From contig CANLWB010000012.1 of assembly GCA_947494695.1 (NCBI GenBank), forward strand, positions 1 to 64,000: a stretch of DNA of 64,000 nt, written 5' to 3'. This stretch comes from an uncultured Flavobacteriaceae bacterium. GTDB lineage: Bacteria > Bacteroidota > Bacteroidia > Flavobacteriales > Flavobacteriaceae. The notes under the pieces are model-generated. The model did no database searches. It saw only the letters and a program-made list of their open reading frames with translations, and was not told where the DNA came from. This document shows positions 16,721-39,862 of this stretch, piece after piece (within the stretch, counting starts at the first letter, position 1; each line of letters opens with the position of its first letter). A program made the translations under genes and the position numbers.

Positions 16721-16777
16721 TCCATGTTTAATGGAAAAATATCCATGTATTACAATACATCTAAAAAGATAGTTTTG
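16721..16777 (+). promoter_or_regulatory. Terpene operon promoter with AraC-type direct repeats
   Basis: TCCATGT occurs at 16721 and again at 16742, a spacing of 21 bp. A -7 box of the Bacteroidota type, TAGTTTTG, lies at 16770-16777, 28 bp after the start of the second repeat. The same layout is found before the ABM gene and the LytTR gene. The expected transcript starts about 97 bp before the prenyl synthase ATG. Direct repeats at 21 bp are typical binding sites of AraC-family activators; such a protein is encoded at 19532-20410. Confidence 0.75.
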
Positions 16778-16880
16778 TACGTAAATAATTTACACAATAC
16801 AAAGATTGTTAGTCAAATAGGATAAATTAAAATGCTATGTACCGAAAATCTTTATAAACAAATCTAAAACTTAACCTAAG

Positions 16881-17750
16881 ATGGAAAAACTAAAATCTAC
16901 TCTAACGAGAACAAAATTAAAAATTGATGCCGCTTTTAAAAACATAAAATTTCCTGATAGTAATGTACTGGAGTCTACTAATGAAGCAATGCATTATATG
17001 CTAAATTTAGGAGATGGAGGTAAAAGAATTAGACCCGCAATTGTTCATGCAATCTCAGAAGCATTTAATGGAGATGAGCAACAAGCTTTTGAATTTGCAA
17101 AAGCAGTAGAGTTCATTCATACCTATACATTAATTATAGACGATATTCAAGATGGTGATATTATGAGAAGAAATGCACCAACATGCCATATAAAATTTGA
17201 TGTCAATACTGCTACCTTGGCAGCTTCAAGGCTTTTTGAAGAAGGGTTGTATCCATTTCACAAATATTGTGAAAACATAGAGCTTTTTCGAGAATTAAAT
17301 AATCAATTACATAAAGGTCAATGTGCAGATTTAAATGCTGAATCATGGGGAGAAGACATGTTATCATTACAACATTTACAATTCATACACTCAGGAAAAA
17401 CAAGTGCTTTAATACAGATAGCTATTTTAGGAGGATGTATTTCTAGTAAATTGACAGAACAACAAACCAGTAAACTACTGGACTATGGATATTATTTAGG
17501 TCTTGCATTTCAAGCCAAAGATGATATTCTTAGTAAGACAGAAACCCCTCAATCATTAGGCAAACAAGCAGGAGAAGAGGCAGACGAAAATAAGCTAACC
17601 TATCCATCACTCTTTGGTTCTGTTGAAAATGCGCAAATCGAAGCTAACAAATTATCAGAAAAGGCAATAGACTGTTTAGACGGATTTGAAAAAGAAAGCG
17701 TAACGGTTTTAGAAGATCTTGCAAAATTTACCGTTCAAAGAAAAAGGTAA
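16881..17750 (+). CDS. Polyprenyl diphosphate synthase (probable FPP/GGPP synthase)
   Basis: The 289-residue protein has the trans-prenyltransferase pattern: GGKRIRP (substrate binding), a first aspartate-rich motif DDIQD (residues 87-91) followed by MRRNAPT, and a second motif QAKDDILS. The first motif is the short DDxxD form, while typical bacterial short-chain enzymes have DDxxxxD. The second motif ends in Ser instead of Asp. Such a variant may alter the chain length or activity. It is first gene after the AraC-box promoter and about 200 bp ahead of the terpene cyclase, which suggests it supplies farnesyl diphosphate. Confidence 0.88.
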   Translation: MEKLKSTLTRTKLKIDAAFKNIKFPDSNVLESTNEAMHYMLNLGDGGKRIRPAIVHAISEAFNGDEQQAFEFAKAVEFIHTYTLIIDDIQDGDIMRRNAPTCHIKFDVNTATLAASRLFEEGLYPFHKYCENIELFRELNNQLHKGQCADLNAESWGEDMLSLQHLQFIHSGKTSALIQIAILGGCISSKLTEQQTSKLLDYGYYLGLAFQAKDDILSKTETPQSLGKQAGEEADENKLTYPSLFGSVENAQIEANKLSEKAIDCLDGFEKESVTVLEDLAKFTVQRKR

Positions 17751-17949
17751 TACCATACTCTGTTAATAAATGAATCTTAACTATATCTTTTTTTGAATAA
17801 AAGGTTAAGAAGCCCTCTTCATTTACAAATTCAATCAATAAAAATTAAAATAGTATGAAATGAGCCAGAATAACTGAATGGTAATACCCACCAAAATGTT
17901 TAATGGCGAATTACATCTGACCTATGTAAAACAATAAAAATTTAAACAG

Positions 17950-19515
17950 ATGAAAGAAGTTTTAGCCCAAGAACCTATTACCAGTTTTCACGAATTATTA
18001 GAAAGATTAGATACCTATGACACCATTATTTTCGACCTCGGAGATGTGCTTCTAAATTGGGATTCTATTCACTTTACAACAGAAACCAAAGGAATAGATG
18101 ATGTTAGAAAAATGGTGAAACATCCTATTTGGCAAGATTTAGAAAAAGGTTTAATAAATAGGGAGCAAGCACTTACAATGCTAAGTTGTGAGCTTCAAAC
18201 ACCTTATAGTAAACTAAAAGAATTACTTGAATTAAGTGTGGCTAGTTTACAGGTAAACGAACCCATGCTAGAAGTGCTTAAGGCCTTACGTAATAGAGGG
18301 AAAAAAATATACTGCCTTTCTAATGTAGATTTAGAGTCCTTTAGTTATTTATATTCTAATTTTGATTATTGGAAATATTTTGATGATATATATGTATCAG
18401 CCTTATTACAATTTAGAAAGCCAGATTCGGATATTTTTCGATATATCATCTCAAGCGCATCTATAAATACTAAAAATGCAGTATTTATAGATGATAAATC
18501 TGAAAATTTACAACAAGCAGCTAACTTAGGGATAAGTACGGTAAAGTATACTAAAGATAACTTTGAATATACACCAGTAAAAAGAGGGGTACTTAACCAT
18601 GAAGTTATAAATAAAGAAGTAAGACAAAAGAAAGAACTCGGAGAAATCTATTTAAATGATAGACTACGTAAATTTCCTTTTTGCAAGAGTTTTGTAAGTA
18701 ATGGCGTGGAATTACTAGGAAGTGAAGATTTTTCTAAAGAAATATTTTCTACTGCGGTTATTTTACACTCCTATACGTCACTGCCTAATGACATTATTGA
18801 ATCCATGGCTCAAGAGATACTTAACCATGACGGACAGAACAAATTGCGTTGGTGCTTTTACAAAAATGAAGCTAGGCCAGAAAAATTTCCAGATGATTTA
18901 GATACAACATCCATGGTGTTATCTTTTCTATTAAGTAATAACAAACTCAATATAGATGATACAGTGCCCGTTGCAGAACAAATGATAAATAACAGAAATG
19001 AAGATGGCATCATACAAGTGTATTTTGATGATAATAGACCTAGAATAGATGCTATAGTAGCTATAAATGTGTTGTATTTAATGTACCAAATAGGTTATGG
19101 AGAAAGAAACGAATTAAAAGAAACAGAGGCATTTATATATGAATTTTTAATGAGTAAAGAATACCTTAAGGGGACACGATATTATCCCGCACCAGATGTC
19201 TTTTTATTTTTTCTTTCGAGATTGGTGGTTGACTTCCCGAATAAGTTTGAAAAATTTCGTAAACCACTTACGGAAATTCTTATTGCACGTGTAAATTGTT
19301 CGCCTTTTGCATTAGAACGCGCTTTAAGAGTTATAGCATTAAAAAAGCTAGGAATTGTTAATAGAGTAGATTTTTTAAAACTATTAAATAGTCAATTGGC
19401 AGATGGTGGTTGGCCTATGTATGGACTTTTTATAGCGCCAAGATCCAATACCTATTTTGGAAGTAGGGAACTTAGTACGGCATTTGCACAAGAAGCATTA
19501 AATTTACTAAGTTAA
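17950..19515 (+). CDS. HAD phosphatase-class II terpene cyclase fusion, drimenol synthase type
   Basis: The 521-residue protein joins two domains. Residues 1-200 are a HAD hydrolase: motif I FDLGDVLLNW (Asp29), motif II CLSNVD, motif III lysine in FRKPDSD and motif IV FIDDKSEN. Residues about 225-521 are an alpha-alpha barrel of the class II terpene cyclase kind with the protonation motif DLDTT (Asp316-Thr320, DxDTT) and repeat-like helices ending DGGWPMYGLF. Known proteins with this order are fungal AstC-type and marine bacterial drimenol synthases, which cyclise farnesyl diphosphate to drimenyl diphosphate and then remove the diphosphate. The upstream prenyl synthase and downstream AraC gene fit a drimane-type sesquiterpene pathway. 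Product identity is inferred. Confidence 0.88.
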   Translation: MKEVLAQEPITSFHELLERLDTYDTIIFDLGDVLLNWDSIHFTTETKGIDDVRKMVKHPIWQDLEKGLINREQALTMLSCELQTPYSKLKELLELSVASLQVNEPMLEVLKALRNRGKKIYCLSNVDLESFSYLYSNFDYWKYFDDIYVSALLQFRKPDSDIFRYIISSASINTKNAVFIDDKSENLQQAANLGISTVKYTKDNFEYTPVKRGVLNHEVINKEVRQKKELGEIYLNDRLRKFPFCKSFVSNGVELLGSEDFSKEIFSTAVILHSYTSLPNDIIESMAQEILNHDGQNKLRWCFYKNEARPEKFPDDLDTTSMVLSFLLSNNKLNIDDTVPVAEQMINNRNEDGIIQVYFDDNRPRIDAIVAINVLYLMYQIGYGERNELKETEAFIYEFLMSKEYLKGTRYYPAPDVFLFFLSRLVVDFPNKFEKFRKPLTEILIARVNCSPFALERALRVIALKKLGIVNRVDFLKLLNSQLADGGWPMYGLFIAPRSNTYFGSRELSTAFAQEALNLLS

Positions 19516-19531
19516 AACCAAGGTAAGTAGT

Positions 19532-20410
19532 ATGGTACAAACTATTATAAATAAGCAAAACAACGAATTGGCATTTAGGCTAGAACAGTTCAATAACCTA
19601 GATCAGTTTGATCATTTACAGAGAAAAAACTATTATTCCGTTATCCTATTAAAAAGTAATAGTTTTAATTTGAAGGTGGACTTTTCAGAATATCAACTCA
19701 ATGAAAATCATATTATTTGCTTATCACCCTACCAACCGTTTATGATAACTTCTAAAGAAGAATCCTCAGGGTTTATATTGAGTTTTCATCCCGATTTTTT
19801 TTGTACTTACCGTCATCAAAATGAAATTGAAACCGAGGGGGTGCTTTTTGGTAATTTTCATGGCTTACCTTTTTTCAAATTATCAGAAGAGGACTTGTTT
19901 TTTAACCTTAGAGACCAAATTTCTAGAGAAATGAATAAAGATTCCATAGCACAACACGAAGTCCTGGTAGCTTTTTTAAAAGTATTTCTTATTGAATCTG
20001 TAAGGTTAAAAAAGAAATTCGATAAAGATGCCGTACTTAAATTTACAGACAGACAATCAGAGATTTTACAAAATTTGGCAGATGCTATAGAAAGCAATTA
20101 TACTACATTACACACGCCTCAGGAATATGCAGATATGCTATGCGTAAGTTCTAGAACTTTAGCCGGAATAGTAAAGAAATATTTAAACCAAACCCTAACA
20201 TCTTTAATAACCAACAGAATTATAATAGCAGCTAAAAGAGAGTTGTATTTAACATCAAAGCCAGTAAAGCAAATCGCTGCAGCATTGGGATATGATGACG
20301 AATTTTATTTTAGCCGATTTTTTAAAAAGAAAGTAGGTGTTTCGCCAGATATTTATAGAAAAACAGTTGGATTTGCTAAACTAGAAAAGTTACAAGCTGG
20401 TCTTCTATAA
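19532..20410 (+). CDS. AraC-family transcriptional regulator
   Basis: The 292-residue protein has a cupin-like N-terminal sensing region (residues 1-150) and a C-terminal AraC DNA-binding domain with two helix-turn-helices: PQEYADMLCVSSRTLAGIVKK and VKQIAAALGYDDEFYFSRFFKK. It lies 16 bp after the terpene cyclase gene, so it is probably co-transcribed. Three promoters nearby carry paired TCCATGT sites 21 bp apart, the spacing that AraC-type proteins use, so it likely activates its own operon and the others. Confidence 0.93.
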   Translation: MVQTIINKQNNELAFRLEQFNNLDQFDHLQRKNYYSVILLKSNSFNLKVDFSEYQLNENHIICLSPYQPFMITSKEESSGFILSFHPDFFCTYRHQNEIETEGVLFGNFHGLPFFKLSEEDLFFNLRDQISREMNKDSIAQHEVLVAFLKVFLIESVRLKKKFDKDAVLKFTDRQSEILQNLADAIESNYTTLHTPQEYADMLCVSSRTLAGIVKKYLNQTLTSLITNRIIIAAKRELYLTSKPVKQIAAALGYDDEFYFSRFFKKKVGVSPDIYRKTVGFAKLEKLQAGLL

Positions 20411-20435
20411 AGTTTTAAATAAGCCTATATAAATC

Positions 20436-20471
20436 AAAAAAAAGGAGTATCACTTAAGAAGCTCCTTTTTT
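20436..20471. terminator. Bidirectional terminator between convergent genes
   Basis: AAAAAAAGGAG and CTCCTTTTTT form a hairpin with A and T runs on both sides, placed between the ends of the AraC gene (+) and the ABM gene (-). It can stop transcription from either direction. Confidence 0.85.
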
Positions 20472-20485
20472 CATATTATATCGAA

Positions 20486-21112
20486 TTATTTACAAGCTAA
20501 AATATCTATTTTTTGAATAGCAGTTGCCTTAAAATCATGCAATAAAACTGGTGCATTTTCTAATAGTGCAGCAGCTACTTTACCATTTAAGTGTGCATCT
20601 CTTCCATGGTTATCATTAAAGGTGTCAAATATACCATAAGTAGTATCATCTATTTTTATGGCGTACCATGATAAGGTTTCGGGTTCATCATCAATTAATT
20701 GCCTACCTGCCTTTAAAAATTGTTCTACTGCTTCAGATTTTCCTGCTTTGGCGTTCATAATAACTAATAAGCCATTGGTTTGTGTACCATATTTATGGTT
20801 AGACGCTATCACGTTAACAAATTCAATGCTTACGTTCGCATCAAAATTTTCTAATAAGTGCTCTGCATTACTTAACAAAGCTTTGGCAACTTCGCCTTTT
20901 AAATGAGTTTTTCGTCCTTCTTCTAATTCAAAAGTATCGAAGATCCCAAAGGTATTATCATCAATTTGGAAACCAAACCATGATACTGTTTTAGGCTCTT
21001 GGAGAACGAGTGGTAATCCACTAAATAAGAAGTTTTTAACTTCCTGTTCTTTTCCTGCTTTAGCCTTCATTGTTACTAATAAACCAATGGTTTCTTTCTT
21101 TGCGTGTTTCAT
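20486..21112 (-). CDS. Tandem ABM-domain (antibiotic biosynthesis monooxygenase-like) protein
   Basis: The 208-residue protein holds two copies of one dimeric alpha/beta barrel module: GLLVTMKAKAGKEQEVKNFL with SWFGFQIDDNTFGIFDTF, then GLLVIMNAKAGKSEAVEQFL with SWYAIKIDDTTYGIFDTF. Single-module relatives act as dimers, so this is a fused dimer. ABM proteins include cofactor-free monooxygenases and proteins of unknown role. Its promoter has the same paired repeats as the terpene operon, so it is probably co-regulated and might oxidise the terpene product or deal with stress; this is inference. Confidence 0.85.
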   Translation of the reverse strand: MKHAKKETIGLLVTMKAKAGKEQEVKNFLFSGLPLVLQEPKTVSWFGFQIDDNTFGIFDTFELEEGRKTHLKGEVAKALLSNAEHLLENFDANVSIEFVNVIASNHKYGTQTNGLLVIMNAKAGKSEAVEQFLKAGRQLIDDEPETLSWYAIKIDDTTYGIFDTFNDNHGRDAHLNGKVAAALLENAPVLLHDFKATAIQKIDILACK

Positions 21113-21209
21113 AAAATTATTGTTTTTGGAGTTAGAAAATAATTAATTGAAAACCCTAAACACATAATTAGGATTTTTGTTTTCAATAGATTAACAATTT
21201 ATAATACTG

Positions 21210-21265
21210 CAAATTTGATACTAAAGAGAAGATCATGGAATGGATTTCTGAGACTTACACATGGA
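21210..21265 (-). promoter_or_regulatory. ABM gene promoter with AraC-type direct repeats
   Basis: Read on the minus strand, TCCATGT (21265-21259) is followed 21 bp later by TCCATTC (21244-21238), and 27 bp after the second start lies CAAATTTG (21217-21210), one mismatch from the TAnnTTTG -7 box. Spacing is identical to that of the terpene and LytTR promoters. The expected 5' untranslated region is about 95 bp. Confidence 0.65.
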
Positions 21266-21310
21266 CAATTTTACACAAAAAAAAAGAACACCAAAATACA
21301 ATTTTATAAA

Positions 21311-21406
21311 ATCCCATAAAATTCCTTTTTAGTCCTCATTTCAATATACTTCAGCACTTTTTTTATTAGAGTAGCTAAATACGGTGAATCTTCGCTATAA
21401 AAATTA
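21311..21406 (+). promoter_or_regulatory. Conserved upstream element, copy A
   Basis: This 95-bp stretch matches copies at 31009-31102 and 34457-34551 along its full length (for example CATAAAA, TTTTTAGTCCTCATTT, TTATTAGAGTAG, TAAATA). It ends 9 bp before the ATG of the 21415 gene. It is non-coding in all three places. It may be a promoter or a transcribed leader with a regulator site. Confidence 0.7.
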
Positions 21407-21414
21407 AGATAAAG

Positions 21415-22524
21415 ATGAAATTACAGCAATTCATACATCAGGTAATCCTTTTTGGCTTGCTAAGTATAACAGGTAGTGCCAAGGCTCAAATAACTAGCAA
21501 TACAAGCAAGGTTGTAGGTAATCTGTCAAGTTATAGTGTGAGTTTGTCAGATGATACTACAACTTTAGCTATAGGAACGCACCAAGCCAATAACACCAGT
21601 ACAAAATCAGGACGAGTACGCATATATAAAAAGAATTCAGAGGGGTGGAGTCAAATAGGTAATGACATCAATGGAGAAACAGTAGGAGATTGGTCAGGCT
21701 ATAGTGTGAGTCTATCGGGCAATGGTACTACAGTAGCTATAGGGGCTATACGTAACCATGGGCGCAACGGTGTAAATTCAGGACATGTACGTGTGTATAG
21801 AAACGAGTCAGGAGTTTGGAAACAAGTAGGAGGAGATATCGATGGTGAAGCCCAAGGAGGCTGGTCTGGTTACAGTGTGAGCTTATCTCAAGATGGTGAT
21901 ACCGTAGCTATAGGAGCTGTGCTTAGTAGTAGTAATGGTTCGTGTTCTGGGCATGTGAGGGTGTATAAGAATAATTCAGGAAAATGGATTCAGGTAGGGG
22001 GAAATATAAACGGTAAAGCAGAAAAAGATTATTTCGGGGCTAGCGTCAGTTTGTCTGGTAATGGCAATATGTTGGCTGTAGGAGCACATCAGGGCGGAGT
22101 GCCTTCAGGTTACGTAAGTGTCTATAAAAATATATCGGGGCGTTGGGTGCAAATAGGTAAAGATATTGTAGGCGAGTCAACAGGAGATTTCTCAGGATGG
22201 AATATAAGCTTGTCTAATAATGGTACTACCGTAGCCATAGCAGCATATAATAATAAGAAGAAGAAAAGATATGCCTACGTCCGTACATATCAAAACAAAT
22301 CCAATACCTGGGCACAGCAAGGTGCAGATATAGATGGTAAAGTAATGGGGTATAACCTGTCTGGGATGTTTAACAATATAAATCTTGCTAATGATAGTAC
22401 GATAACGCTTATAGGAGCCTATGAAGAAGAAAATAATAAGAACAAGCAAACCCCAAATATAAGTTATGTGCGCATGTATAGATTTAAAGAGAGCTCAAAT
22501 ATATGGGCAAACATGCAAATATAA
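21415..22524 (+). CDS. Secreted beta-propeller-like repeat protein
   Basis: The 369-residue protein has a signal peptide ending SAKAQ (about residue 25) and six repeats of about 50 residues with the pattern GYSVSLSxDGxTVAIGA ... SGHVRVYKN ... WxQVGxDIxGE, like FG-GAP/integrin-type propeller blades. The same blades form the N-terminal part of the next large gene (22887). There is no C-terminal sorting domain, so it may remain periplasmic or be released another way. It probably acts as a surface or binding protein. It lies directly downstream of conserved element A. Confidence 0.75.
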   Translation: MKLQQFIHQVILFGLLSITGSAKAQITSNTSKVVGNLSSYSVSLSDDTTTLAIGTHQANNTSTKSGRVRIYKKNSEGWSQIGNDINGETVGDWSGYSVSLSGNGTTVAIGAIRNHGRNGVNSGHVRVYRNESGVWKQVGGDIDGEAQGGWSGYSVSLSQDGDTVAIGAVLSSSNGSCSGHVRVYKNNSGKWIQVGGNINGKAEKDYFGASVSLSGNGNMLAVGAHQGGVPSGYVSVYKNISGRWVQIGKDIVGESTGDFSGWNISLSNNGTTVAIAAYNNKKKKRYAYVRTYQNKSNTWAQQGADIDGKVMGYNLSGMFNNINLANDSTITLIGAYEEENNKNKQTPNISYVRMYRFKESSNIWANMQI

Positions 22525-22886
22525 AGATTAAAGGTGGTATAAGAAGAGAGGTGTAGGTTGCTCCAATACAATCTTATTTATTGAAGTATTGAAGTAGGTT
22601 AATTAAATAAGTAAGATTTTCTGCATAATAAGTTGGGGCCTTATTAGTGAGCAGCCTATATACCACCTAAAAAATAGTTAAATAAAAATCTAAAAATTTT
22701 AAAGATATGAAAGAAAGATTACACACAATAACACATTATTTAAAACCTCACAAAAATTGGTAAAGATAAAAGCACTACACCTGTTATATGTGGTGGTGTT
22801 TGTACAGGTAAGTGCCATTCTTTTTGGTTTGATAATACTGGTTAGAACTGCTTTATTCAATTAAAAAATCATAAAAATATAAATAG
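22525..22886. other. Leader region before the large adhesin gene
   Basis: This region has a block (22646-22688) matching the leader of the 31260 gene, sharing CCTATATAC and ATAGTTAAATAAAAA, as well as a GAGGTGTAGG motif at about 22547. A tiny frame with start 22707 (18 codons) and a frame without ATG ending at 22863 (rich in Val/Leu/Ile, like one membrane helix: LHLLYVVVFVQVSAILFGLI) are seen. The latter could be a small membrane peptide or a decayed gene. Confidence 0.45.
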
Positions 22887-25800
22887 ATGAAAAAACGATT
22901 AAAAATTGGAGTCGTCCTCTTTGGTTTAATAAGCTTAAATAGTTATGCTCAAAAACAGATAGGAAACGATATAGAAGGATATTGGCGTTTGGGGTTAGGG
23001 GCAGCCACATGTCTCTCTGCAGATGGTAATACGGTTGCTGTAGGATGTTGGGCTTCAGGTAGGTATAATCTAGCAGAAGCAGCTATACGTAATATTGGTG
23101 TTCATGGCAATAATGGTCAGGTGCGTGTGTATACTAAAAAGACTTCTAGTGTCGCGGGTGTTCATTGGGAGCAGGTGGGTGATTTTATATTGGCAGAAAC
23201 CAACATTGCTGGATTAGATGATGGAGAAGAGTTTGGAAGGGACTTAAGCCTGTCTGATGATGGAACAATTTTGGCCATAGGAGCCAGTGGAAATGATGGT
23301 GCTGGCATAAATACAGGACATGTACGTGTATATGGAAAATTGAAAGATACATCGTCACCTGGTGGTTTTAAATGGCAGCAAATAGGTAATGATATTGATG
23401 GTACCCAAGAGAACAGCTTTTCAGGTTTTTCGGTGAGTTTATCTGGTGATGGTAACGTAGTTGCCATAGGGGCTCAAGGTTTTGATATTAATAATGATCT
23501 TGAAGATGCGGGGCAGGTAAGCGTATACAAGAGAAGCGCTGATAATAATTGGGTGCAGATTGGTGATGCTATTAAGGGGCAATCAAAAACTGAACATTTT
23601 GGCACCAGTGTAAGTATTTCCCAAAATGGAAATATTTTAGCTATAGCTGGACTTAATCTTGGAGACAATTTAGGAAGAGTATATAAAACTAAAGGTTTAG
23701 TAACCAGAGTGTATGAAAACAGGAATAACAATTGGGTTCAGATAGGTGATTTTATAAGTAATGATTTTATAATTAATGATGTTATAAGTAATGAAGGCGT
23801 TGTGAATGTTAATAATAAGAATAAAAGAGGGCAAATACGTCTTACGAGTAGCGGTAACACCCTTGCAATAAATTCAGTTGCAGATGAAACTGTACGTGTA
23901 TATACCAGAGATACCAATAATAATTGGAGTTTAAGAGGAAATGTACTAAAAGAAGAAGGCATAGAAAGTATTGCTTTATCAGATGATGCAAATACTTTGA
24001 TAGTTGGAAAAGCATTTGCAAGGATTAATAATATAGGCAGTGCAGGAAGTGTTCATGTCTACAAGTACAATCCAGATAATACTAACGGTAATTGGCAGAT
24101 GGTTGAGGTTTCAGATGATTATTTTACAGGAGAACATGTAGGTCATCGTTTAGGTCAAGACAATAGTTTAAGTGTGTCTCCAGATGGCACGGTGATAGCT
24201 TTGGGAGCTCCATTTTATGGTATAGAGATAAGACCAAGTAATGGAGCATCTGTGAGGATATCTAGAGGGAGGATCAGAATGTTTAACATTGGCATAAGTG
24301 ATGTAAATATTGAAGGTGCACCAGTAACGGTAAGTAGCACAGATGCTTTTGGGGTAACTTTTAAATTTAATAAAAGTGTTACAGGTTTTAGTGAGGAAGA
24401 TATAGTTATAACCAATGCCTCTGTAACAGATTTTGAAGTGGTTGATGCATTAACGTATACTGCTAACATTGTACCAACCTCTATATGTAGTAATGATGAT
24501 GATATTACCATAAGTGTGGCCGAAGGTGCAGCATTAAATGTAGATTCAGGTTTACCCAATTTAGCCTCTAAAGAGGTAGTTGTAAAAACAGCACCTGGGC
24601 CAGTGGCAGTGGCTAAAAATATTACCGTACAGTTAGATACCAATGGAGAAGTAAGAATCTCACCAGAAGATATTGACAATGGGTCTTTTTTTAGCTGTAG
24701 TACAGTTGCAGGGGGTATTACGCTTAGTCTAGACAAAGACACCTTTACTTGTACAGACGTAGGAGCTCCAGTAGAGGTTGAACTTACCGCCACTTCTGGA
24801 ACTCTAACAGCTACGGCAACTGCTATGGTAACCGTAGAGAATACTATAAATAACCTTATAGCAGTTACTCAAGATATAACAGTAGAGTTAGATACCAATG
24901 GGGAAGTAACCATTTTACCAGAAGATATAGATAATGGTTCTAATTTTAACTGTAGTGGGGTAGCAAGCGCCATTACGCTTAGCCTAAACCAAGACACCTT
25001 TACTTGTGCAGATATAGGAACTCCAGTAGAGGTTGAACTTACCGCCACTTCAGGTGCTTTAACAGCTACTGCAACAGCTATGGTAACCGTAGAGAATACT
25101 GTAAATAGCCTTATAGCAGTAGCTCAAGATATTACAGTAGAGTTAGATACCAATGGGGAAGTAACCATTTTACCAGAAGATATAGATAATGGTTCTAATT
25201 TTAACTGTAGTGGGGTAGCAAGCGCCATTACGCTTAGCCTAAACCAAGACACCTTTACTTGTGCAGATATAGGAACTCCAGTAGAGGTTGAACTTACCGC
25301 CACTTCAGGTGCTTTAACAGCTACTGCAACAGCTATGGTAACCGTAGAGAATACTGTAAATAGCCTTATAGCAGTAGCTCAAGATATTACAGTAGAGTTA
25401 GATACCAATGGGGAAGTAACCATTTTACCAGAGGATATAGATAATGGTTCTAATTTTAAATGTAGCGGTACCTCAGGAGTCATTACGTTTAGCCTAAACC
25501 AAGACACCTTTACTTGTGCAGACGTAGGAGCTCCAGTAGAGGTTGAACTTACCGCCACTTCTGGAGCTCTAACAGCTATTGCAACAGCTATGGTAACCGT
25601 AAAAGATGCCAACAATTGTAAATCTGGTGGGCTTGTAAATGTAAATTCAGGGTTCTCTCCTAATGGCGATGGTATTGCAGATACTTTAGAAATAAAAGGT
25701 CTTGAAAAATTTAAGAACAACGTTGTTAAAATTTATAATCTAAGCCAGAGATTGCTGTTCAGTGGGCATTATAATGGACCAAGCAATGCTTGGAACGGCA

Positions 25801-26010: not shown

Positions 26011-26907
26011 ATGAACAATTATAAATTATATTTTTTTAGCATAATCTATATCTCTATGTGGAGTATACAATCTTATGCGCAACAAGATGTAACATTCACC
26101 ATGTATAATTACAATATGAATATCATCAATCCTGCTTATGCAGGCACTGGTGAAACATTAGAGCTTACCTCCAACTTTAGAACCCAGTGGCAGGGGCTGG
26201 ATGGTGCACCAAAGACCCAGAGTTTTTCATTGAGTAGTCCAACAAATGAAAAAGTGGGATTGGGGCTTTCCATTACTAACAGTAGTGTATTTGTACTTAA
26301 TGAAACAGATGTTTTTGCTGATTTTTCATATAAATTAAAATTAGATGAAACATTAGAGCTATTCTTGGGGCTTAAAGCAGGAGGCGCTTTTGTGAATATA
26401 AATCTCGCCGATATAGGGCTTGATAATGATCCGCTTTTTTCAGAAAATGTGAGTGTATTTAATCCTAATGTTGGAGTAGGAGCCTTTTTAAAGGGAAAGA
26501 ACTTTTTTATAAATATGTCGGCACCTGCACTTCTAAGAACTAAAAGATACGAAAAGAAGTCGGGCATTGTAACACATGCCACAGACAAAATGCAATTTTT
26601 TGCTGGTGCAGGGTATCATTTTCCTTTGAATAAAGAGATTACGTTTACGCCTTCTTTTTTAACAAGACTCATAAGTGATGTGCCATTCTCTATGGATATT
26701 AGCGGAACATTAGATGTATACGATTTGGTAGAATTTGGTCTCAGTTATAGACTAAAGGAATCTATTAGTACAATCGTATTTTTTAAAATGACAAATAGTC
26801 TAGAAATAGGATATGCTTATGACAGTTCAATAACTGCTGTAAGCAATTATAGAAGGGGAAACCACGAAATAATATTGAAAGTTTCCAATCTACTCAATTT
26901 CAGGTAA
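26011..26907 (+). CDS. PorP/SprF family outer membrane protein (type IX secretion)
   Basis: The 298-residue protein has a signal peptide (IQSYAQ), then the family start QDVTFTMYNYNMNIINPAYAG and a beta-barrel-like body with alternating residues, ending NHEIILKVSNLLNFR. SprF-like proteins bind and anchor type B sorted substrates such as SprB to the cell surface. It lies 106 bp after the adhesin gene, as expected for a substrate-anchor pair. Confidence 0.92.
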   Translation: MNNYKLYFFSIIYISMWSIQSYAQQDVTFTMYNYNMNIINPAYAGTGETLELTSNFRTQWQGLDGAPKTQSFSLSSPTNEKVGLGLSITNSSVFVLNETDVFADFSYKLKLDETLELFLGLKAGGAFVNINLADIGLDNDPLFSENVSVFNPNVGVGAFLKGKNFFINMSAPALLRTKRYEKKSGIVTHATDKMQFFAGAGYHFPLNKEITFTPSFLTRLISDVPFSMDISGTLDVYDLVEFGLSYRLKESISTIVFFKMTNSLEIGYAYDSSITAVSNYRRGNHEIILKVSNLLNFR

Positions 26908-27010
26908 GACACAATCATAAAAATAAGAATAGGAGACAAGTATAAACCAAATTTTAGTTACTAGGTAAGATTAATGATTGTTGTGTATTAATTTTGAAAA
27001 ACAAAAGTTT

Positions 27011-27088
27011 ATCATGTCGACAAAGCGAAGTATGAGCGACGAGACATCTCTCACGTATATAAGATGTCTCGTCGTTCGGAATGAAAAC
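27011..27088. repeat. Flavobacterial intergenic palindromic repeat, copy 1
   Basis: The stretch holds CATGTCGACAAAGCGAAG, a GAGACATCT ... AGATGTCTC hairpin (27041-27070), and GTCGTTCGGAATGA. It has the layout of the GTCATTCCGAA-type intergenic repeats seen elsewhere in the window (30834, 33897). Confidence 0.75.
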
Positions 27089-27211
27089 ATCTTCTATAGT
27101 TGTACTGTAACTTCTGGAGTGGTAAAATGAGAATATTTAGGTTTTTTCATATAACCACAATGAAAACCAAAAAAGAGAGTTATGGTAATATAAACCCAAA
27201 TTATATATAAA

Positions 27212-28204
27212 ATGAATAAGAAAATGATACAAATAAAAACGTTTAAACCTTTATTGTTTTTGCTGTTTACTATAGCGCTTTTTGCATGTAGTTCTAATAA
27301 TGATTCTAATGGAGAAGATAGTGAAGAAATAAGGGCCACTAAAGAAAAATTAGTTGGAGATTGGAAATTAGTAAGTAGTACTATCGATAATAAAAATGTG
27401 TCATCATCAGAATTTAAATGCTTAAAAAATTCAACAGCTACTTTTAATCAAGATGGTACATATGAACTAACGTTTTTAAAACTTGGAAGTGGTTCTACAG
27501 ACCTCTGTTCTAAAACTAGTACACAATCTGGAACTTATATGGTTACTGGTCTAAACAAGGTTACTTTTTTCAATTTTAATTCAGAAATCAAGTTAATCGA
27601 TGATACACTACAAATTACTTCTAAAATCACCAATGGTGAAGAGGAACAAGATCAGGTAGATGTTTTTATTAGAAAGGACAATACGGAATTAGAAGAAGAG
27701 TCTGAAGAGGAAAGAGACGAGGTAGAAACAGATGGCGAGGAAACAGATGATAATGATGACAACACTTTTTATGGAACTGAAGTAATTCAAAAAATATTGG
27801 GAAAGTGGAAAATTGACTCTGACCAAGATTGTCTTCAAAAAAATACAATAGAATTTAAACCTCAAAGTGTTTTTGAGTTTATACAACATAAAAAAAGCTT
27901 TAATCGTAGCGATTTGCTAGACTATAATGTTAGTGTAAGTTACCCTTTACCAGAAAGTATTAAAGCAACAGTGACTAAAGGTAATAATATGGTTGTTTTT
28001 GATACTAGTGCAGAATGTCAATTTACTAAAACCAGTACTTTAGAGTATATTGTAAAAGACGAAAAAACGATAGTACTTAGAAATATTTCGGGTCTCAAAA
28101 TGTTGTTGGAAGATGATCAAACTATTAAGCTTATATATACATTTATAGATAGTGATAGTAATGAACAGGTTAGAGAATTTATTTATAAAAAAGATAAAAA
28201 ATAG
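27212..28204 (+). CDS. Lipoprotein with two lipocalin-like domains
   Basis: The 330-residue protein has a lipobox (LFACSS, Cys near residue 27). Two lipocalin-like modules (KEKLVGDWKLVSS ... and IQKILGKWKIDSD ...) are joined by a highly acidic linker (residues about 155-180, mostly Glu and Asp). Both domains follow the pattern LxGxWK, middle strands and a closing strand with basic residues (VFIRKDN, EFIYKKDKK). This is common for Bacteroidota lipoproteins of unknown role. It follows the SprF-like gene but across a repeat, so it is likely separate. Confidence 0.8.
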   Translation: MNKKMIQIKTFKPLLFLLFTIALFACSSNNDSNGEDSEEIRATKEKLVGDWKLVSSTIDNKNVSSSEFKCLKNSTATFNQDGTYELTFLKLGSGSTDLCSKTSTQSGTYMVTGLNKVTFFNFNSEIKLIDDTLQITSKITNGEEEQDQVDVFIRKDNTELEEESEEERDEVETDGEETDDNDDNTFYGTEVIQKILGKWKIDSDQDCLQKNTIEFKPQSVFEFIQHKKSFNRSDLLDYNVSVSYPLPESIKATVTKGNNMVVFDTSAECQFTKTSTLEYIVKDEKTIVLRNISGLKMLLEDDQTIKLIYTFIDSDSNEQVREFIYKKDKK

Positions 28205-28666
28205 GAGTATTGAATAAATTAGTGGTAGTAGAATGAGTGATCATAACAAAGGGGTGGTAATACTCTTACTCACTAAAATCCTAAATTCACGAAACTAAAA
28301 TTAAAATAAAAAAACTGAGAATAAATTGTTTATGAAAAGAATTCCCCGATCTTGCGTCTGGGCATTTAAATTATCATTCCTGTGAAATTCTGGATTCATG
28401 AAATACTAAATTAAAAATATATTAGTGTATAAAACGGCAATCTAAACTACAGTATTTAAACTCTAAAGTCAAACAAAATAAAGCCAGAAAAATAGAAATA
28501 CCCCTATGGGGCTAGATAAAAGGTGGGGGTAAGAAATTTTTTATTGGAGAATTACATTCTTACACATGAAAAATGGAGGTTTTTACCTCCATTTTTTTAT
28601 TCATAATTCTCTCAATAGGAGCTTATAGATAGCTAGGTATAAAATAAGGTGTAATCCTAGCCTAGC
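28205..28666. other. Intergenic region with terminator, no gene seen
   Basis: AT-rich region between convergent genes. The only clear structure is the hairpin terminator at 28569-28599. No open frame here has coding character. Confidence 0.6.
28569..28599. terminator. Terminator between convergent genes
   Basis: AAAAATGGAGG and CCTCCATTTTTTT form a perfect stem with a four-base loop region and T run. It serves the lipocalin gene (+) and likely also the metalloprotease gene (-). Confidence 0.85.
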
Positions 28667-30619
28667 CTACTTAATAAGTACTTTTTTAACGACCGTACCA
28701 GACTCAGAATATATTTTTACTAAATAAAGACCAGAAGATGCATTTTTAATCTCGACAGTTTTAATTCTAGAGCTGGAGAAATTGTCTTTAAATACCAATC
28801 GTCCGTTAATATCATAAACTTCTAGCTTATCTAAATTAATTGATGATAGATTTTTTTCAATAGAAAATTTTCTCGATGTAGGATTTGGAAAAATGCTAAT
28901 AGCTTTATTTAGCTCTACATTTTCTAAACTTAAAGAATCACAGGAAACTCCTGTCATAATAGATTTATTACAAACAGTACTCCTAGTGCTCCTAGATTGT
29001 ACATTATTTGCTCCAGCTATATTATTACTGTTTAAAACCCTTTGAAACGTTCCATAAGATGCAGCAAAATGCATCACATCATCTAAATTATTTCCGTTGA
29101 CAGTACGGTCTATAACGTGTTGTAGTTGATGCCCATGTCCTAGCTCGTGCAATGATACACTTTCAAAATCTATTTGGTTTGATGCAGGAACACCCATACC
29201 TGTATACCAATTGGTAGCATTATTAAATGTTATATCTATTTCGCTAACATACCAGAATACATTATCCTCTGTATTACACCTTGAAAAATAACTAATGCAG
29301 GAACCAAGAACGCCAGCACCTAATTCGTTGCCATTATCAAATCTTATAATGTTTACGTCGTCAGATTCTACTTTATCTATAGATGTAGCAGTATTACTAA
29401 TGGTCCAGTTAATACCGGTGGTGCAAATCCATTTATTAAAAGAACGCTCAAAAGCAGCTCTTGCTCCAGTTACTTCTGTATCATAAAAAAAAGGTGTAAA
29501 CATTTCAAAGGTAATGCCTCCATAGCTATTAGTATCTACATGCTGTACTGGATAAGCAATAAGCGTACCTGTAATATTACTGGGTACGTTTAACTCAGAA
29601 AATGTTATAATTAAATCGTTTAAAGATTCCCCACTAGATCTGTTGGCATTTGTAATTCTTATTTTTCCGCTCCCAGCCGTTTTAGCTTCAGAGAAACTCA
29701 CATTAGAAGGAACTTCTACCGTGATTCTGGTATTATTCCAGGTTAATACTTGAGAGTCTAGCGCGTTAACCATAGATGCACCTCCATCATCTGCATTTGC
29801 AAACCCCACTTTGCCTTTGGTAGCGCCAAAACCAGTGCCTGTAATAGTTAAAACAGATCTGGTACCTCCACTAATATGTGTAGGCAAAAAGGTAATGTTA
29901 CTGGGAGGTAGAGACGCGAGGGAGTTTTTACTACTTTGTTTTTTTAATGATGATTCTGCAAATACACTAAACGGGACTATAGCAACATATGGCTTTTTAG
30001 TAATTTCTGTAATAGCAGTGTATAATGTTTTTTCTATACCAGAATTAGTGTTGTAAGTATTAAAAACTTTATCATGCTCAAGGTCATACTTAAACAGACT
30101 TTGTGCTGAAGCATAAGGTTTAAACAGGTTAGAATATGATTGTGGTTGTTCAGTAAAAGTAACGTCACTTTTTCTTAAAGTAAATACCCCTATATCTCCT
30201 ATAGTAAGGTTTAAACAAGGAAAAACCTTCATGGCTTCTAAACCAACAACCCCGCCTTGTGTTACAACGTAAATGTCTTTTACAAGGTTGCCTTTAAAAA
30301 CTTTATAAACTTTTAGGGTATTAACCGTATAAATTTTAGAATGATTATCATCCCAAACAGACGCTTTGGCAACTACTTCTCCCTCTACGACTAGGCTAGA
30401 ATTAGTAATCTGTTCTTTTAATGGCACTTTTTTCATTAAATGCTGTGCTTGTAAGCTACCGTAACCAAACAGGCATAAAAACAGCATAAGTGCTCCATTA
30501 CTTATTAGAGTTTTGTAATTAAGGTTAAAATAATAGGAAGTAAAACATTGCATACTTATATCTTCTTTTGTTTCAAAACAACGTTTAACCATATTAAAAA
30601 TGAAGCGTAATGTTACCAT
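28667..30619 (-). CDS. Secreted zinc metalloprotease with IPT/TIG domain and T9SS sorting domain
   Basis: The 650-residue frame probably starts at the internal Met at residue 23 (30553), which gives a normal signal peptide ending GSLQAQ. An IPT/TIG domain (about 240-340, SVLTITGTGFGATKG) precedes a zincin catalytic domain with HELGHGHQLQH at 491-501 (HExxH plus third His) and VMHF as possible Met-turn. The C-terminus IFPNPTSRKF to VLIK is a type A T9SS sorting domain. It is likely an extracellular protease of the matrixin-like group. The glycine usual between second and third His is absent. Confidence 0.87.
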   Translation of the reverse strand: MVTLRFIFNMVKRCFETKEDISMQCFTSYYFNLNYKTLISNGALMLFLCLFGYGSLQAQHLMKKVPLKEQITNSSLVVEGEVVAKASVWDDNHSKIYTVNTLKVYKVFKGNLVKDIYVVTQGGVVGLEAMKVFPCLNLTIGDIGVFTLRKSDVTFTEQPQSYSNLFKPYASAQSLFKYDLEHDKVFNTYNTNSGIEKTLYTAITEITKKPYVAIVPFSVFAESSLKKQSSKNSLASLPPSNITFLPTHISGGTRSVLTITGTGFGATKGKVGFANADDGGASMVNALDSQVLTWNNTRITVEVPSNVSFSEAKTAGSGKIRITNANRSSGESLNDLIITFSELNVPSNITGTLIAYPVQHVDTNSYGGITFEMFTPFFYDTEVTGARAAFERSFNKWICTTGINWTISNTATSIDKVESDDVNIIRFDNGNELGAGVLGSCISYFSRCNTEDNVFWYVSEIDITFNNATNWYTGMGVPASNQIDFESVSLHELGHGHQLQHVIDRTVNGNNLDDVMHFAASYGTFQRVLNSNNIAGANNVQSRSTRSTVCNKSIMTGVSCDSLSLENVELNKAISIFPNPTSRKFSIEKNLSSINLDKLEVYDINGRLVFKDNFSSSRIKTVEIKNASSGLYLVKIYSESGTVVKKVLIK

Positions 30620-30833
30620 TACATTAAACTATGGGACAAAATACATGTATTTAGGGATTTGCTTTTTTGATGATGATCACATGATTTCACTTTAAAATGA
30701 TGAGATTACCATAACTGAATTATCTATAGGTTCTGGCTATACTTCTTATGGTAATGTTTTTGTGTGACTAACTATTTTAAGAAAAGCCAGTAGACAATAA
30801 TTTTATCAAGCGTACAAAATGATATTACAGCGT

Positions 30834-30953
30834 GTCATTCTGAAGGCGATGCATTGAGCCTGTCGAAATGAGGAACGACAGAAGAATCTCCAGAAATTTA
30901 GTAGAGATTCTTCGCTTACTTCGACAGGCTCAGCACAGGTCGCTCTGAATGAC
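30834..30953. repeat. Flavobacterial intergenic palindromic repeat, copy 2
   Basis: A long inverted repeat: GTCATTCTGAA at the left end and GAATGAC at the right, GAGCCTGTCGAA against TTCGACAGGCTC, and AGAATCTC against GAGATTCT around a 13-base centre. Such repeats occur many times in flavobacterial genomes. If transcribed it would form a large hairpin. Confidence 0.85.
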
Positions 30954-31008
30954 AAGCAAATCTAAATCAGTAAATTATAAAATAGTGTCAACGGTAGCGC
31001 TATATAAA

Positions 31009-31102
31009 ATCTCATAAAACCACTTATTAGTCCCCATTTTAACACGCTTAAGCACATTTTTTATAAGAGTAACTAAATAGATTCGAATTTTGATATAAAA
31101 TT
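31009..31102 (+). promoter_or_regulatory. Conserved upstream element, copy B
   Basis: Matches elements A (21311) and C (34457) over about 95 bp. It lies about 158 bp before the ATG of the LamG protein gene. A second conserved block follows at 31195-31241 and matches 22646-22688. Confidence 0.7.
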
Positions 31103-31259
31103 ACCAAAAACAATATTCAATTGATAAAAATAATCCAAGCATATTATAATGAAGGATAATACGTGAAAAGAAGGTGTAGGGAGGCATAAGGATAAGTTAG
31201 TAAGTAACCTATATACTCTTAAATATATAGTTAAATAAAAACGACAAATAAATAAAAGC

Positions 31260-33851
31260 ATGAAAAAACAATTACAACTAAGACAGCATCTCGCCATACT
31301 ATTATGGTTTTTTACGTTAGCCACACATAGTCAGGGATTTGGTAGTGCCTTACATTTCGATGGGCAAAATGATTACGTAGAACTTAATGATTTTGCAAGA
31401 CCTGATAATTTTACTGTAGAATTTTGGATATATAATGAACGTGTTATTGAAGATCAAAATTTTAGTATATTATCTTGGGTTGGGAATGCCGACTTTGTGA
31501 GTTGGATTCTTACGTCGCAGAATCATGTGTTTTATGTAGCGAGAGGGGGTGATGGTCATACAGACGTGAGACAAATAGGTTTTCCGCTTCCAAGTAATGA
31601 GTGGCATCATGTTGCCGTTGTTAAAGATGGAGAAAATATACATCTTTATATTGATGGAAATATTAAAGGACAAATCATCTCTAATAGTAATGAGGTTTCT
31701 AATAGCAATAGTACGGTTATCTTAGGAGCTACTAATGCTGGGAATCCGATTATTTCTGAATTTTTTGGTGGTGCACTGGATGAGTTAAGAGTTTGGAATT
31801 ACCCAAAAACCGCAGATGAAATTCAAATTCAAATAAATAAAGAATTAATGGGTAATGAATATAATTACAATAAGTTAGTAGCTTATTTTAAATTTAATGA
31901 AGGAGATGCTGGAACAGACAATACGAGTATAACCACATTAATTAATGAAGTAGGTAGTAATAATAACACCTTGGAAAATTTCTCCTTGGCAGACAACACT
32001 AACACATCTAATTTTATAGAAAGTCTTGCCGGAAGCGATGTTGTAGATTTACAGCTTGACGTTAATAATGATAACGCTTTAGATTTTGATGGGGATAATG
32101 ATTATGTAGATTTGGAACATTTTGAAGTGCCAGATGAGTTTACCGTAGAATTTTGGATGCATGATAAAACAACAAGTAGTTTGGTTACGTCTACTAGACG
32201 ACATGTAGTTAGTTGGTTGAAGGATGGTAATGGTGGTATTGGTACTGGTACTGAAATAATACTTGAAACAAATAATAGTGGCAACTTAACAGATCTGATA
32301 TATGCGGCATGGAGCTCTGATGATCCTCATTACAGATACGTAGGTTCTCCTATTACAACCGATAATAAGTGGCACCATGTTGCCGTTGTTAGAGCAAAAA
32401 ACGGTTCTACTGGATTACCCAACGCTAATGATCAAGGCTATGATATAACTCTTTACTTTGATGGAGAACAAATAGGAAAAGGAACTGCCAATTACACCGA
32501 AGATAAAACTGATAAGCTTAGAATTGGTAGTTGGGCTGGTGGTTTGGGTAATGACTTCTATGGCAGCTTAGACGAACTAAGAGTTTGGAATTATGCCAGA
32601 ACCCAGGAAGATATTCAAGGGCAAATGCACTCAAAAGCATTAAATAACGAAACTGGTTTATTGGCCTATTATCCTTTTAATCATGGTATTGCCAATGAAG
32701 ACAATACAGGTAAAATCTTATTATTGGATTACTCGGGAAATGATTATCATGGTAATTTAGCTAATTTTTCCTTAATAGATACAGGCACTTCTAACTGGGT
32801 AGATGGAGTAGATGTTACAAAAGTAGAAAATGGTGCTTTTATTACCACATGGCAAGTTAAAGACGGTGAGTCCATTACCATTCCTATTAGAATTAATAAC
32901 ACTAACACTAACACTAATATTAGTAATAGTGATATATATAACTACAACTTTACCGTAGAGTGGGGAGATGGTAGTACAACAGACTTTGTTACCAATAATT
33001 CATCTAATACAGACCTTACCCATGAATACACAAATGCAGGTGCCTATACGGTGACCATTACTGGAAGGTTTCCTGCTATTTATTTTAACGATAGTGGAGA
33101 CAAAGACAAGATACGAACTGTAGAGCAATGGGGTAATATACAATGGTTATCCATGCAGAATGCCTTTTCTGGATGTAGTAATTTTGATGTTTATGCCCAT
33201 GATGCGCCTAATTTAGACCAAGTAACCCAAATGTGGGGCATGTTTTTTGGTGCTACTAAGTTTACTGGACAACAAACTAATATGAACAGTTGGGGCGTGA
33301 GCAATGTTCAAAAATTTTCTAGGATATTTTCAGGCACAAGATTTAATACATCTATTGGCAACTGGAACCTTCAAAGTCTAGATGATGCTAACATTCATAA
33401 TATGTTTCAAGGTGCTAATAGCCTAGATTGTAGTAACGGTACAGCCATTATTGAAGGGTGGGGTAATAACCCTAATATCGCTTCTGGAGCCTTCGTTCTC
33501 AATGTTAGAGATTATGCTGCTTCAGCGGCAATAGCCATAAGTAATCTGGAAGCTAAAGGCTGGACCATTAACGGTACAGAAATTTCAGAATGTCCTACTC
33601 TCTCTACTGATAATAATGAAGTATTTAGTAACGCTATAAAAGTAACTAACCCAGTAACTAATGTATTAACAATTAATGGGCCTGCTGGCTTTGAGCTAAA
33701 AGAAGCTACACTTTATAACATATTAGGTAAACAAATATTAAGTACTACTAACACCACAGTAAATACTAGCAAGCTATCCTCTGGAATGTATATTTTAAAA
33801 ATTAGAAATAAAGAAGGGCTAACAGCCACTAAAAAAATTATAAAGCAATAG
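31260..33851 (+). CDS. Secreted LamG/PKD/BspA-like protein with T9SS sorting domain
   Basis: The 863-residue protein has a signal peptide (ATHSQG), two LamG/concanavalin-like domains (about 28-200 and 270-470, both with FDGxNDYVxL, TVEFWM and KWHHVAVV), a PKD-like module (GDGSTTDFVTNN, about 560-620), BspA/DUF285-like short repeats (MQNAFSGCSNF, MWGMFFGATKF, FSRIFSGTRF, about 630-740) and a type A T9SS sorting domain at the C-terminus (LYNILGKQIL to IIKQ). It is probably a surface-exposed or secreted binding protein. Confidence 0.9.
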   Translation: MKKQLQLRQHLAILLWFFTLATHSQGFGSALHFDGQNDYVELNDFARPDNFTVEFWIYNERVIEDQNFSILSWVGNADFVSWILTSQNHVFYVARGGDGHTDVRQIGFPLPSNEWHHVAVVKDGENIHLYIDGNIKGQIISNSNEVSNSNSTVILGATNAGNPIISEFFGGALDELRVWNYPKTADEIQIQINKELMGNEYNYNKLVAYFKFNEGDAGTDNTSITTLINEVGSNNNTLENFSLADNTNTSNFIESLAGSDVVDLQLDVNNDNALDFDGDNDYVDLEHFEVPDEFTVEFWMHDKTTSSLVTSTRRHVVSWLKDGNGGIGTGTEIILETNNSGNLTDLIYAAWSSDDPHYRYVGSPITTDNKWHHVAVVRAKNGSTGLPNANDQGYDITLYFDGEQIGKGTANYTEDKTDKLRIGSWAGGLGNDFYGSLDELRVWNYARTQEDIQGQMHSKALNNETGLLAYYPFNHGIANEDNTGKILLLDYSGNDYHGNLANFSLIDTGTSNWVDGVDVTKVENGAFITTWQVKDGESITIPIRINNTNTNTNISNSDIYNYNFTVEWGDGSTTDFVTNNSSNTDLTHEYTNAGAYTVTITGRFPAIYFNDSGDKDKIRTVEQWGNIQWLSMQNAFSGCSNFDVYAHDAPNLDQVTQMWGMFFGATKFTGQQTNMNSWGVSNVQKFSRIFSGTRFNTSIGNWNLQSLDDANIHNMFQGANSLDCSNGTAIIEGWGNNPNIASGAFVLNVRDYAASAAIAISNLEAKGWTINGTEISECPTLSTDNNEVFSNAIKVTNPVTNVLTINGPAGFELKEATLYNILGKQILSTTNTTVNTSKLSSGMYILKIRNKEGLTATKKIIKQ

Positions 33852-33896
33852 TAAATTAAGTGCTTGTAAATATAAAATATTGATTTTTAGATGTTT

Positions 33897-34042
33897 GTCA
33901 TTTCGACAGAGTGAATAATGCGATGCGCTGAGCATGGTCGAAGTGAGCGACGAGAAATCTCAGAATAATGAGATTCCCCTCAAAAGCTTCGCTTATATCT
34001 TTAAACAAAATATATTTTGTTTTCGATAGTGTTTGGAATGAC
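33897..34042. repeat. Flavobacterial intergenic palindromic repeat, copy 3
   Basis: Begins GTCATTTCGACAGAG and ends GGAATGAC, with GAGAAATCTCAG and TGAGATTC near the centre. The arms are more diverged than in copy 2. Confidence 0.75.
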
Positions 34043-34456
34043 AACAATAATCAATTTAAAGTCAGATTTTTACATATGAACTTATATCGAACTCACATTA
34101 AAATAAGCGCTTATTAAATACCTCCCCCTTTGCTAATTATCAATATGATGATGTCATCCTGAACTTGTTTCATGGTGGCATCATTTTTTTTCATTAATCT
34201 TAAAAGTTAGGAATGGTGTGGTTACAATGTATACCTGTTTTTTATTTGAAATAATATAAAAAAAGTGTCATTATCAAGGCGCATTATATAAAGAAGAGGT
34301 GTAGCAACGAGACATTTTGGGCTTGATTTTTCTTGAGTATACCAAAATAAATAACTACTGTTTGGGTCTCTCTTTTTTTGTTCATTGTTTACGCCTCAAA
34401 CAAAAAGAATAAACAACTTCAGATACCTTAAAATTACCCGAAATCTAATTTTTTAA

Positions 34457-34551
34457 ATCCCATAAAACCACTTTTTAGTCCTCATTTTAACAGGCTTAAA
34501 CACATTTTTTATTAGAGTAGTTAAATAGGATGAATCTTAGCTTTAAAATTA
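34457..34551 (+). promoter_or_regulatory. Conserved upstream element, copy C
   Basis: Matches elements A and B over about 95 bp. It lies upstream of the AraC-type promoter of the LytTR gene, about 340 bp before its ATG. Confidence 0.7.
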
Positions 34552-34682
34552 TGTTTATCGTGTTTGAAAATTATAAAAAGATAAAAAGAGCAGGGGTAGG
34601 CATTATAGAAATTAACATCTATACATAAATCTAAAACAGGTTTAAATACAAATAAACAATATAAAAACGACTGTAAAGTAAA

Positions 34683-34741
34683 TTATCCATGTCAAATAGA
34701 GAATTATCCATGTTTTAGAGCATAGAATGAAGATAGTTTTG
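34683..34741 (+). promoter_or_regulatory. LytTR gene promoter with AraC-type direct repeats
   Basis: ATTATCCATGT at 34683 is repeated exactly at 34704 (21-bp spacing). TAGTTTTG, a -7 box, lies at 34734-34741, 27 bp after the second TCCATGT. The sequence around the -7 box (AGATAGTTTTGT) is the same as in the terpene promoter. The leader to the ATG is about 140 bp. Confidence 0.75.
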
Positions 34742-39856: not shown

Positions 39857-39862
39857 ATAAAC

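Follow-up and report, generated by a model that had tools for sequence, protein, structure and literature searches.

Described direct-repeat operators and the locus under study

The AraC protein of Escherichia coli combines a barrel with a double helix-turn-helix (HTH) domain and occupies, at araI1-I2, direct half-sites set 21 bp apart with the proximal one beside the polymerase; its ligand is arabinose and a long-range looping site is also involved. In the phylum Bacteroidota, comparable direct repeats have been predicted as operators for two kinds of regulator: in Bacteroides thetaiotaomicron, for hybrid two-component systems of AraC type (HTCS), at an average distance of 21 bp (PMC3878776), and for the AraC-family regulator RhaR of Bacteroides, with a 21-bp periodicity that was called a unique motif (PMC3870299). 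Marine bacterial drimenol synthases have been characterised from Aquimarina spongiae and Flavivirga eckloniae (PMC9128629, PMC12365925); the words AraC and operon do not occur in the main texts, so that regulation of the kind discussed here is not treated in them. The present analysis concerns a stretch of 64,000 nucleotides (the window; positions 1 to 64,000 of contig CANLWB010000012.1, assembly GCA_947494695.1) from an uncultured Flavobacteriaceae bacterium, in which three promoters share paired TCCAT repeats ahead of a -7 box and in which an AraC-family regulator of 292 aa (19532..20410, plus strand), the last gene of a terpene operon with a drimenol synthase of the same family as the characterised enzymes (17950-19515), is very probably the binder of these tandem sites.

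The HTCS resemble this system in the AraC-type DNA-binding domain, in the spacing of direct repeats at about 21 bp and in the phylum; they are, however, sensor kinases with carbohydrate targets, whereas the AraC protein of the window is free-standing, carries a barrel at its N-terminus and has non-carbohydrate targets. For this protein, Pfam gave only HTH families (HTH_18, E 1.5e-19; HTH_AraC, E 7.7e-12), with the kinase and receiver domains of HTCS not found in it. Its AlphaFold model, with a mean predicted local distance difference test score of 76.6, matches AraC-type regulatory and double-HTH domains; the N-terminal barrel aligns at moderate confidence to ToxT, BgaR and AraC (2arc, 13% identity over the barrel) and the C-terminal part to the double HTH domains of AraC. 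RhaR is likewise a free-standing AraC-family activator with a 21-bp direct repeat, but serves rhamnose catabolism and has other targets. As repeats of about 21 bp have been predicted for both HTCS and RhaR, mechanisms of this kind are already known. To judge from searches of the open-licence literature, what is new here are the operator of this AraC lineage, its fixed distance to the box, a core of genes for antibiotic biosynthesis monooxygenase (ABM)-like or carboxymuconolactone decarboxylase (CMD)-like enzymes, and the extension to drimenol genes. In that literature, nothing was found on AraC operators with direct repeats in Flavobacteri-, on AraC with TAnnTTTG in Bacteroidetes, on a link of DUF1348 to AraC, or on a link of AraC to antibiotic biosynthesis monooxygenase in Flavobacteri-; co-mentions of AraC and drimenol among those listed look like chance by their titles, and the combination of AraC, carboxymuconolactone decarboxylase and a Bacteroidetes operon led only to PMC10434189, which is on iron.

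Operator geometry and its conservation with the AraC lineage

The three promoters described in an earlier note on this DNA, with repeats at 21 bp and 27-28 bp between proximal repeat and box, are borne out by the present analysis. The terpene-operon operator and promoter (16713..16777, plus strand) carries TCCATGT at 16721 and 16742 and the box TAGTTTTG at 16770-16777; that of the ABM-like gene (21210..21273, minus strand) carries TCCATGT at 21265, TCCATTC at 21244 and the box CAAATTTG at 21217-21210; and that of a LytTR-domain gene (34678..34741, plus strand) carries TCCATGT at 34686 and 34707 and again TAGTTTTG at 34734-34741. The repeat spacing is exactly 21 bp at all three, the proximal repeat lies 28, 27 and 27 bp from the box, respectively, and the box fits TAnnTTTG at the two TAGTTTTG sites and with one mismatch at the third. 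Written as a unit, the operator consists of two copies of AAAATTGTCCAT at a spacing of 21 bp and a -7 box whose distance from the first TCCAT is 48 bp. That this shared layout is due to chance, or to the copying of a repeat element, might be considered, as the word TCCATGT by itself is common and not enriched (12 occurrences in the window versus 8.2 expected, with 14 of 100 shuffles reaching 12). The full layout, TCCAT-N16-TCCAT-N21..23-NANNTTTG, occurs, however, three times in the window, for which 1000 dinucleotide shuffles average 0.0, the sequences flanking the sites vary while the geometry is constant, and AraC relatives of other families again have the layout close by. Together with the reversed-sequence controls, the 21-bp spacing peak and the excess of matches near araC described below, this led to the rejection of chance, and either form of this explanation is given a negligible probability.

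Conservation has been followed in two sets of loci. The first was drawn from 19 genomes and covers the surroundings of 20 AraC homologues (44-86% identity); here, all 20 same-family loci hold TCCAT-N16-TCCAT with at most one mismatch and NANNTTTG at 47-49 bp, with no match in the reversed sequence of this set and the window (403 kb). The second, the best 80 of 557 AraC relatives retrieved from named genomes with an AraC alignment, spans Flavobacteriaceae, Cyclobacteriaceae, Chitinophagaceae, Saprospiraceae and others, and the operator is present in 71 of its loci, as compared to one match in 1.38 Mb of reversed control. Among the nine loci outside the rule, seven have a looser site (L122, L123, L157, L159, L160, L161 and L184), L163 has no operator even by the looser rule, and L143, cut by a contig end, lacks the ruled site. 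Over the 100 loci of both sets, the count of TCCAT pairs is 100 for a spacing of 21 bp, as compared to 3 to 19 for each other spacing from 8 to 60, and the box offset is 48 in 83 cases, with 57, 63 and 68 once each. The consensus of 99 distinct sites reads gAAAATTGTCCAT...AATTaTCCATTT...cAaaTTTG. As the sigma-A -7 box of Flavobacteriaceae, TAnnTTTG, has been placed at -12 to -5 in a previous report (PMC9723704), the TCCAT words begin near -60 and -39. In sequence terms, the operator travels with the AraC lineage at a nearly invariant geometry.

A LytTR domain, on the other hand, also binds direct repeats about 21-22 bp apart, and the LytTR gene of the window has a site of its own, so that the LytTR protein (34890-35696) might be the binder and autoregulate its gene. 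Against this, a LytTR orthologue (E 1e-15) is missing in 18 of the 20 genomes with the operator near an AraC gene, and the 80 named loci usually show the operator together with an AraC relative while this LytTR gene is absent from the stretch. The LytTR gene is therefore taken as a target and its product as binder has been rejected, at a probability that we consider very small.

The repeat itself appears to evolve together with the AraC protein, as its distal half is changed in more distant relatives. Thus, 7 of 8 loci of distant AraC homologues (33-37% identity) carry TCCAA-N16-TCCAT with the box at 48, two of the seven belonging to one genus, and an AraC paralogue in the same genome as the window (C1:131698, 32% identity), situated before a CMD-like gene, has a site with the same spacing and a different distal half, TTGACAAG by eye. 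Such paralogues could share sites with the window protein, so that the terpene and ABM-like promoters would answer to several regulators; two close AraC copies also exist in Flavivirga jejuensis (L118, L121) and in an Aquimarina genome (L120, L156). The paralogue site, however, differs in its distal half and reaches just E 0.09 with the operator profile introduced below, and sharing of sites among paralogues is considered unlikely.

The genes behind the operator are informative with respect to its core target. In six loci at 73-77% AraC identity (L066-L071), the site heads an ABM-araC pair, whereas in twelve loci at 44-48% identity it heads an operon that opens with a CMD-like gene and closes with araC, with, by reading, a DUF1348-like gene between them in ten of the twelve. 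An additional site is present in L080 and L083, ahead of an isochorismatase-like gene that lies upstream. Pfam, run on single examples, gave CMD and DUF1348 for L073, YHS and MOSC for L077 and isochorismatase for L080. An enzyme operon that closes with araC and is thereby autoregulated seems to represent the core target.

Extent and members of the proposed regulon

Within the genome of 5.49 Mb, the strict form TCCATG-N15-TCCATG-N17..24-TAnnTTTG has three matches, 16721 and 34686 in the window and C6:219891 outside it, and none in the reversed control; the ABM-like site falls outside this form. A profile built from 42 operator sites, none of them from this genome, with 150 of 6439 first-look candidates scored, ranks the ABM-like site first (E 1.3e-13), the LytTR site second (E 1.1e-11), C6:219891 third (E 4.1e-7) and the terpene site fourth (E 5.4e-6). 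Rank 5, at E 6.7e-4, lies within a coding frame and is without a box, and all lower ranks have E values of at least 0.09. As further sites, C11:191633, situated within a coding frame and without a correctly placed box, and C10:88750, by eye equally without such a box, were dropped. The expectation that matches are few and centred on the AraC gene has therefore held, while the proposal that the regulon is confined to one island has not, as the third-best site precedes a lipoprotein gene of another contig, C6.

Among 299 genomes of the family, the strict layout occurs in the own genome (three matches) and in the same-genus genome G248 (one match, about 3 kb from an AraC orthologue of 86% identity) and nowhere else; another genome of the genus, G019, lacks the strict site as well as a close AraC orthologue and the drimenol synthase. 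A looser pattern gives 64 matches, 22 of them at most 20 kb from an AraC gene of the clade and 42 elsewhere, versus 41 in the control; since the matches away from araC are about as many as those of the control, the excess follows araC. Such a match is present in 19 of the 22 family genomes with a clade AraC gene. About two thirds of the 64 matches look like background, as do extra matches in L076 (15312) and L139 (11761); C6:219891, one of the 42, was accepted on its profile rank and on the paralogy of its gene to an island gene. In G248, the profile places the ABM, LytTR and PorP/SprF promoters first, which is by construction, as these three sites were in the training set; the terpene promoter of G248, absent from the training set, follows at E 0.003. 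A candidate at G248:C1:4513483 (E 0.005) has one mismatch in the proximal repeat, by eye the box TATGTTTG at 48, and lies between divergent genes.

For the ABM-like and LytTR genes, the proposed control is supported by retention of their site in relatives. The two-repeat ABM-like protein (20486..21112, minus strand), provisionally so named after the earlier note and PDB entry 2pd1 ('Hypothetical protein'), matches that entry in its second half (E 5e-18) and no Pfam family at 0.001. The LytTR-domain protein of 268 aa (34890..35696, plus strand; Pfam LytTR, E 1.1e-13) has homologues of at least 65% identity with a site ahead of the gene in 5 of 6 loci (window, G248/L065, L114, L118, L187); in the sixth, L120, the gene is in two pieces and no site lies directly ahead of it. 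With Flavivirga amylovorans, the window LytTR protein shares 93% identity and the product of the gene at 36125 shares 96%, which makes Flavivirga the probable genus of the host. On the Aquimarina contig L120 (1061-2256), the operator precedes an FG-GAP repeat gene, which may have been recruited as a further target. The window region 38605-41223, on the right side of the LytTR gene, contains a transposase of the Mutator family and a gene whose domains are of phage-integrase type.

Additional candidate targets are lipoprotein and PorP/SprF genes. For a lipocalin-like lipoprotein (27212..28204, plus strand), no own site was found in the window; contig C6, however, encodes a paralogue of 46% identity, a 321-aa lipoprotein, and the C6:219891 site precedes its gene by about 250 bp. 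In G248 and in Flavivirga amylovorans, the lipocalin-like lipoprotein gene lies downstream of a PorP/SprF gene that has the site; while G248 and L187 show a site for PorP/SprF, the window does not.

The terpene operon (16881-20410) consists of a polyprenyl, farnesyl-type, diphosphate synthase (16881..17750, plus strand; Pfam polyprenyl_synt, E 3e-49; among NCBIfam models, FPPsyn fits best but does not reach its cut-off), a HAD-terpene cyclase fusion (17950..19515, plus strand) with matches to the PDB entries 9mhs, 'Drimenol Synthase' (E 8.6e-283), and 9m7d (E 4.3e-280), and araC. A drimenol synthase was found in 2 of the 299 family genomes, with araC adjacent in both. Control of this operon by the shared site, as claimed in the earlier note, is partly supported: nine drimenol loci, picked through araC (window, G248/L065, L115, L116, L117, L119, L120, L125, L187), include four with a full site ahead of the synthase genes, namely the window, L117, L187 with one mismatch, and L125 with the site directly ahead of the synthase, so that the case is weaker than originally stated. 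The drimenol synthase gene of L120, an Aquimarina locus, is broken. In L114 (Algibacter lectus, 9680-10000) and L118 (Flavivirga jejuensis, 9750-10000), by eye a remnant of the diphosphate synthase start lies between operator and araC, the two repeats being 14 bp apart in the L118 locus; the drimenol operon thus appears to have been lost and the operator kept next to araC. In the window, the operon is preceded by two small genes (15764-16542) that could not be assigned convincingly to any family; L065, L114-L120 and L187 have the same pair, in each case upstream of either araC or the synthase operon.

Proposed mechanism and evolution

From this geometry, a scheme that we regard as highly likely can be proposed. 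Full-length AraC (292 aa) would bind as a dimer to two direct AAAATTGTCCAT-like repeats at 21 bp, that is, two helical turns; the proximal TCCAT at about -39 would stand in for the -33 element, so that bound AraC would contact sigma-A polymerase at the -7 box and activate in a class II manner; and, with the regulator usually the last gene of an operon with its own operator, positive autoregulation is proposed. The core operon would consist of an ABM-like enzyme, or of CMD/DUF1348-type enzymes, and end in araC, to which drimenol-group targets would have been added. Binding, dimerisation and activation are here predictions from sequence: in the claim that AraC activates the three transcription units of the window, the part concerning AraC as binder is strongly supported, the operator tracking its lineage, while activation is suggested by geometry only. 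AraC could indeed bind and repress, or toggle between states with a ligand, and the closeness of the sites to the promoter core would fit this. The proximal repeat, however, ends upstream of the -7 box in the position of a class II activator, and a TTG beginning in the -33 zone is rare, with 6 of 99 sites versus 27 of 99 for a control zone, as for activator-dependent promoters, which makes repression or toggling rather improbable, though of the alternatives to activation by this AraC protein it retains the largest share.

Several observations weigh against the scheme of class II activation by AraC. Some of the -33 zone is taken up by the repeat, so that the rarity of TTG in this zone supports activation weakly. 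At the terpene site (16721), the first repeat lies 49 bp from the box, 1 bp above the norm of 48 bp; in the G248 drimenol locus the proximal repeat alone is left and the box by eye reads TAATTTTT, and four Aquimarina loci of the nine have no site ahead of the synthase genes. With a flank of 1.5 kb and one box mismatch allowed, 15 of the 22 loci of the clade contain a site, those without one having it further away where longer flanks were fetched, and in L120, counted among the 71, the site is 7.7 kb from araC and ahead of another gene. Furthermore, the profile training set includes orthologous sites of close relatives, and the two sets of loci overlap, at least 5 of the 20 recurring among the 80 (L067/L132, L068/L147, L069/L148, L070/L152, L071/L153). 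Near-identical AraC-ABM modules in distant genera finally render loci non-independent; as they suggest recent transfer, the independent cases are fewer than the loci. Those of L128, L129, L131 and L162, from Albibacterium, Psychroserpens, Algoriphagus and Zunongwangia, may reflect either recent transfer or assembly contamination.

With respect to evolution, the regulator may have come to the end of the drimenol synthase operon in the group of Flavivirga, Algibacter and Aquimarina, and in some members new operator copies may have arisen before the drimenol operon and the LytTR, PorP/SprF and lipoprotein genes. In a tree of 83 AraC proteins, with the root for drawing only and bootstrap not fully settled, the drimenol-linked proteins are placed among the ABM-linked ones. 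A broader proposition, to which we give an even chance, is that an ancient AraC lineage across Bacteroidota has held a rigid operator (TCCAT-N16-TCCAT-N22-box) over deep divergence with a core ABM or CMD/DUF1348 self-operon, that relatives of Flavivirga coupled drimenol, PorP/SprF, lipoprotein and LytTR genes to the same signal by operator spread, and that H86, C91 and H95 of AraC may act in sensing. These three residues are invariant in 21 of 21 aligned AraC proteins and might form a metal or redox sensor, the model being of low confidence at residues 94-98; as to the inducer, a guess would be some reactive small molecule on which the ABM/CMD enzymes act. A concrete regulator and operator candidates for bacterial drimenol synthesis are thereby provided, with the prediction that the drimenol, ABM and LytTR genes and, in relatives, a secretion gene respond to one signal, and the fixed operator geometry allows gains and losses of the regulon to be traced across the phylum.

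A second operator type has been encountered in addition, with TCCATG, then TTTTTG or similar, TCCAT at 21 bp and a box offset of 47. It occurs in L086, L087 and L089 (position 1501) and at G127:C20:146278, G236:C1:4881287 and G001:C12:397078; in the three L loci it adjoins, by eye, SusC-like TonB receptor genes and probably belongs to another AraC-type or HTCS regulator.

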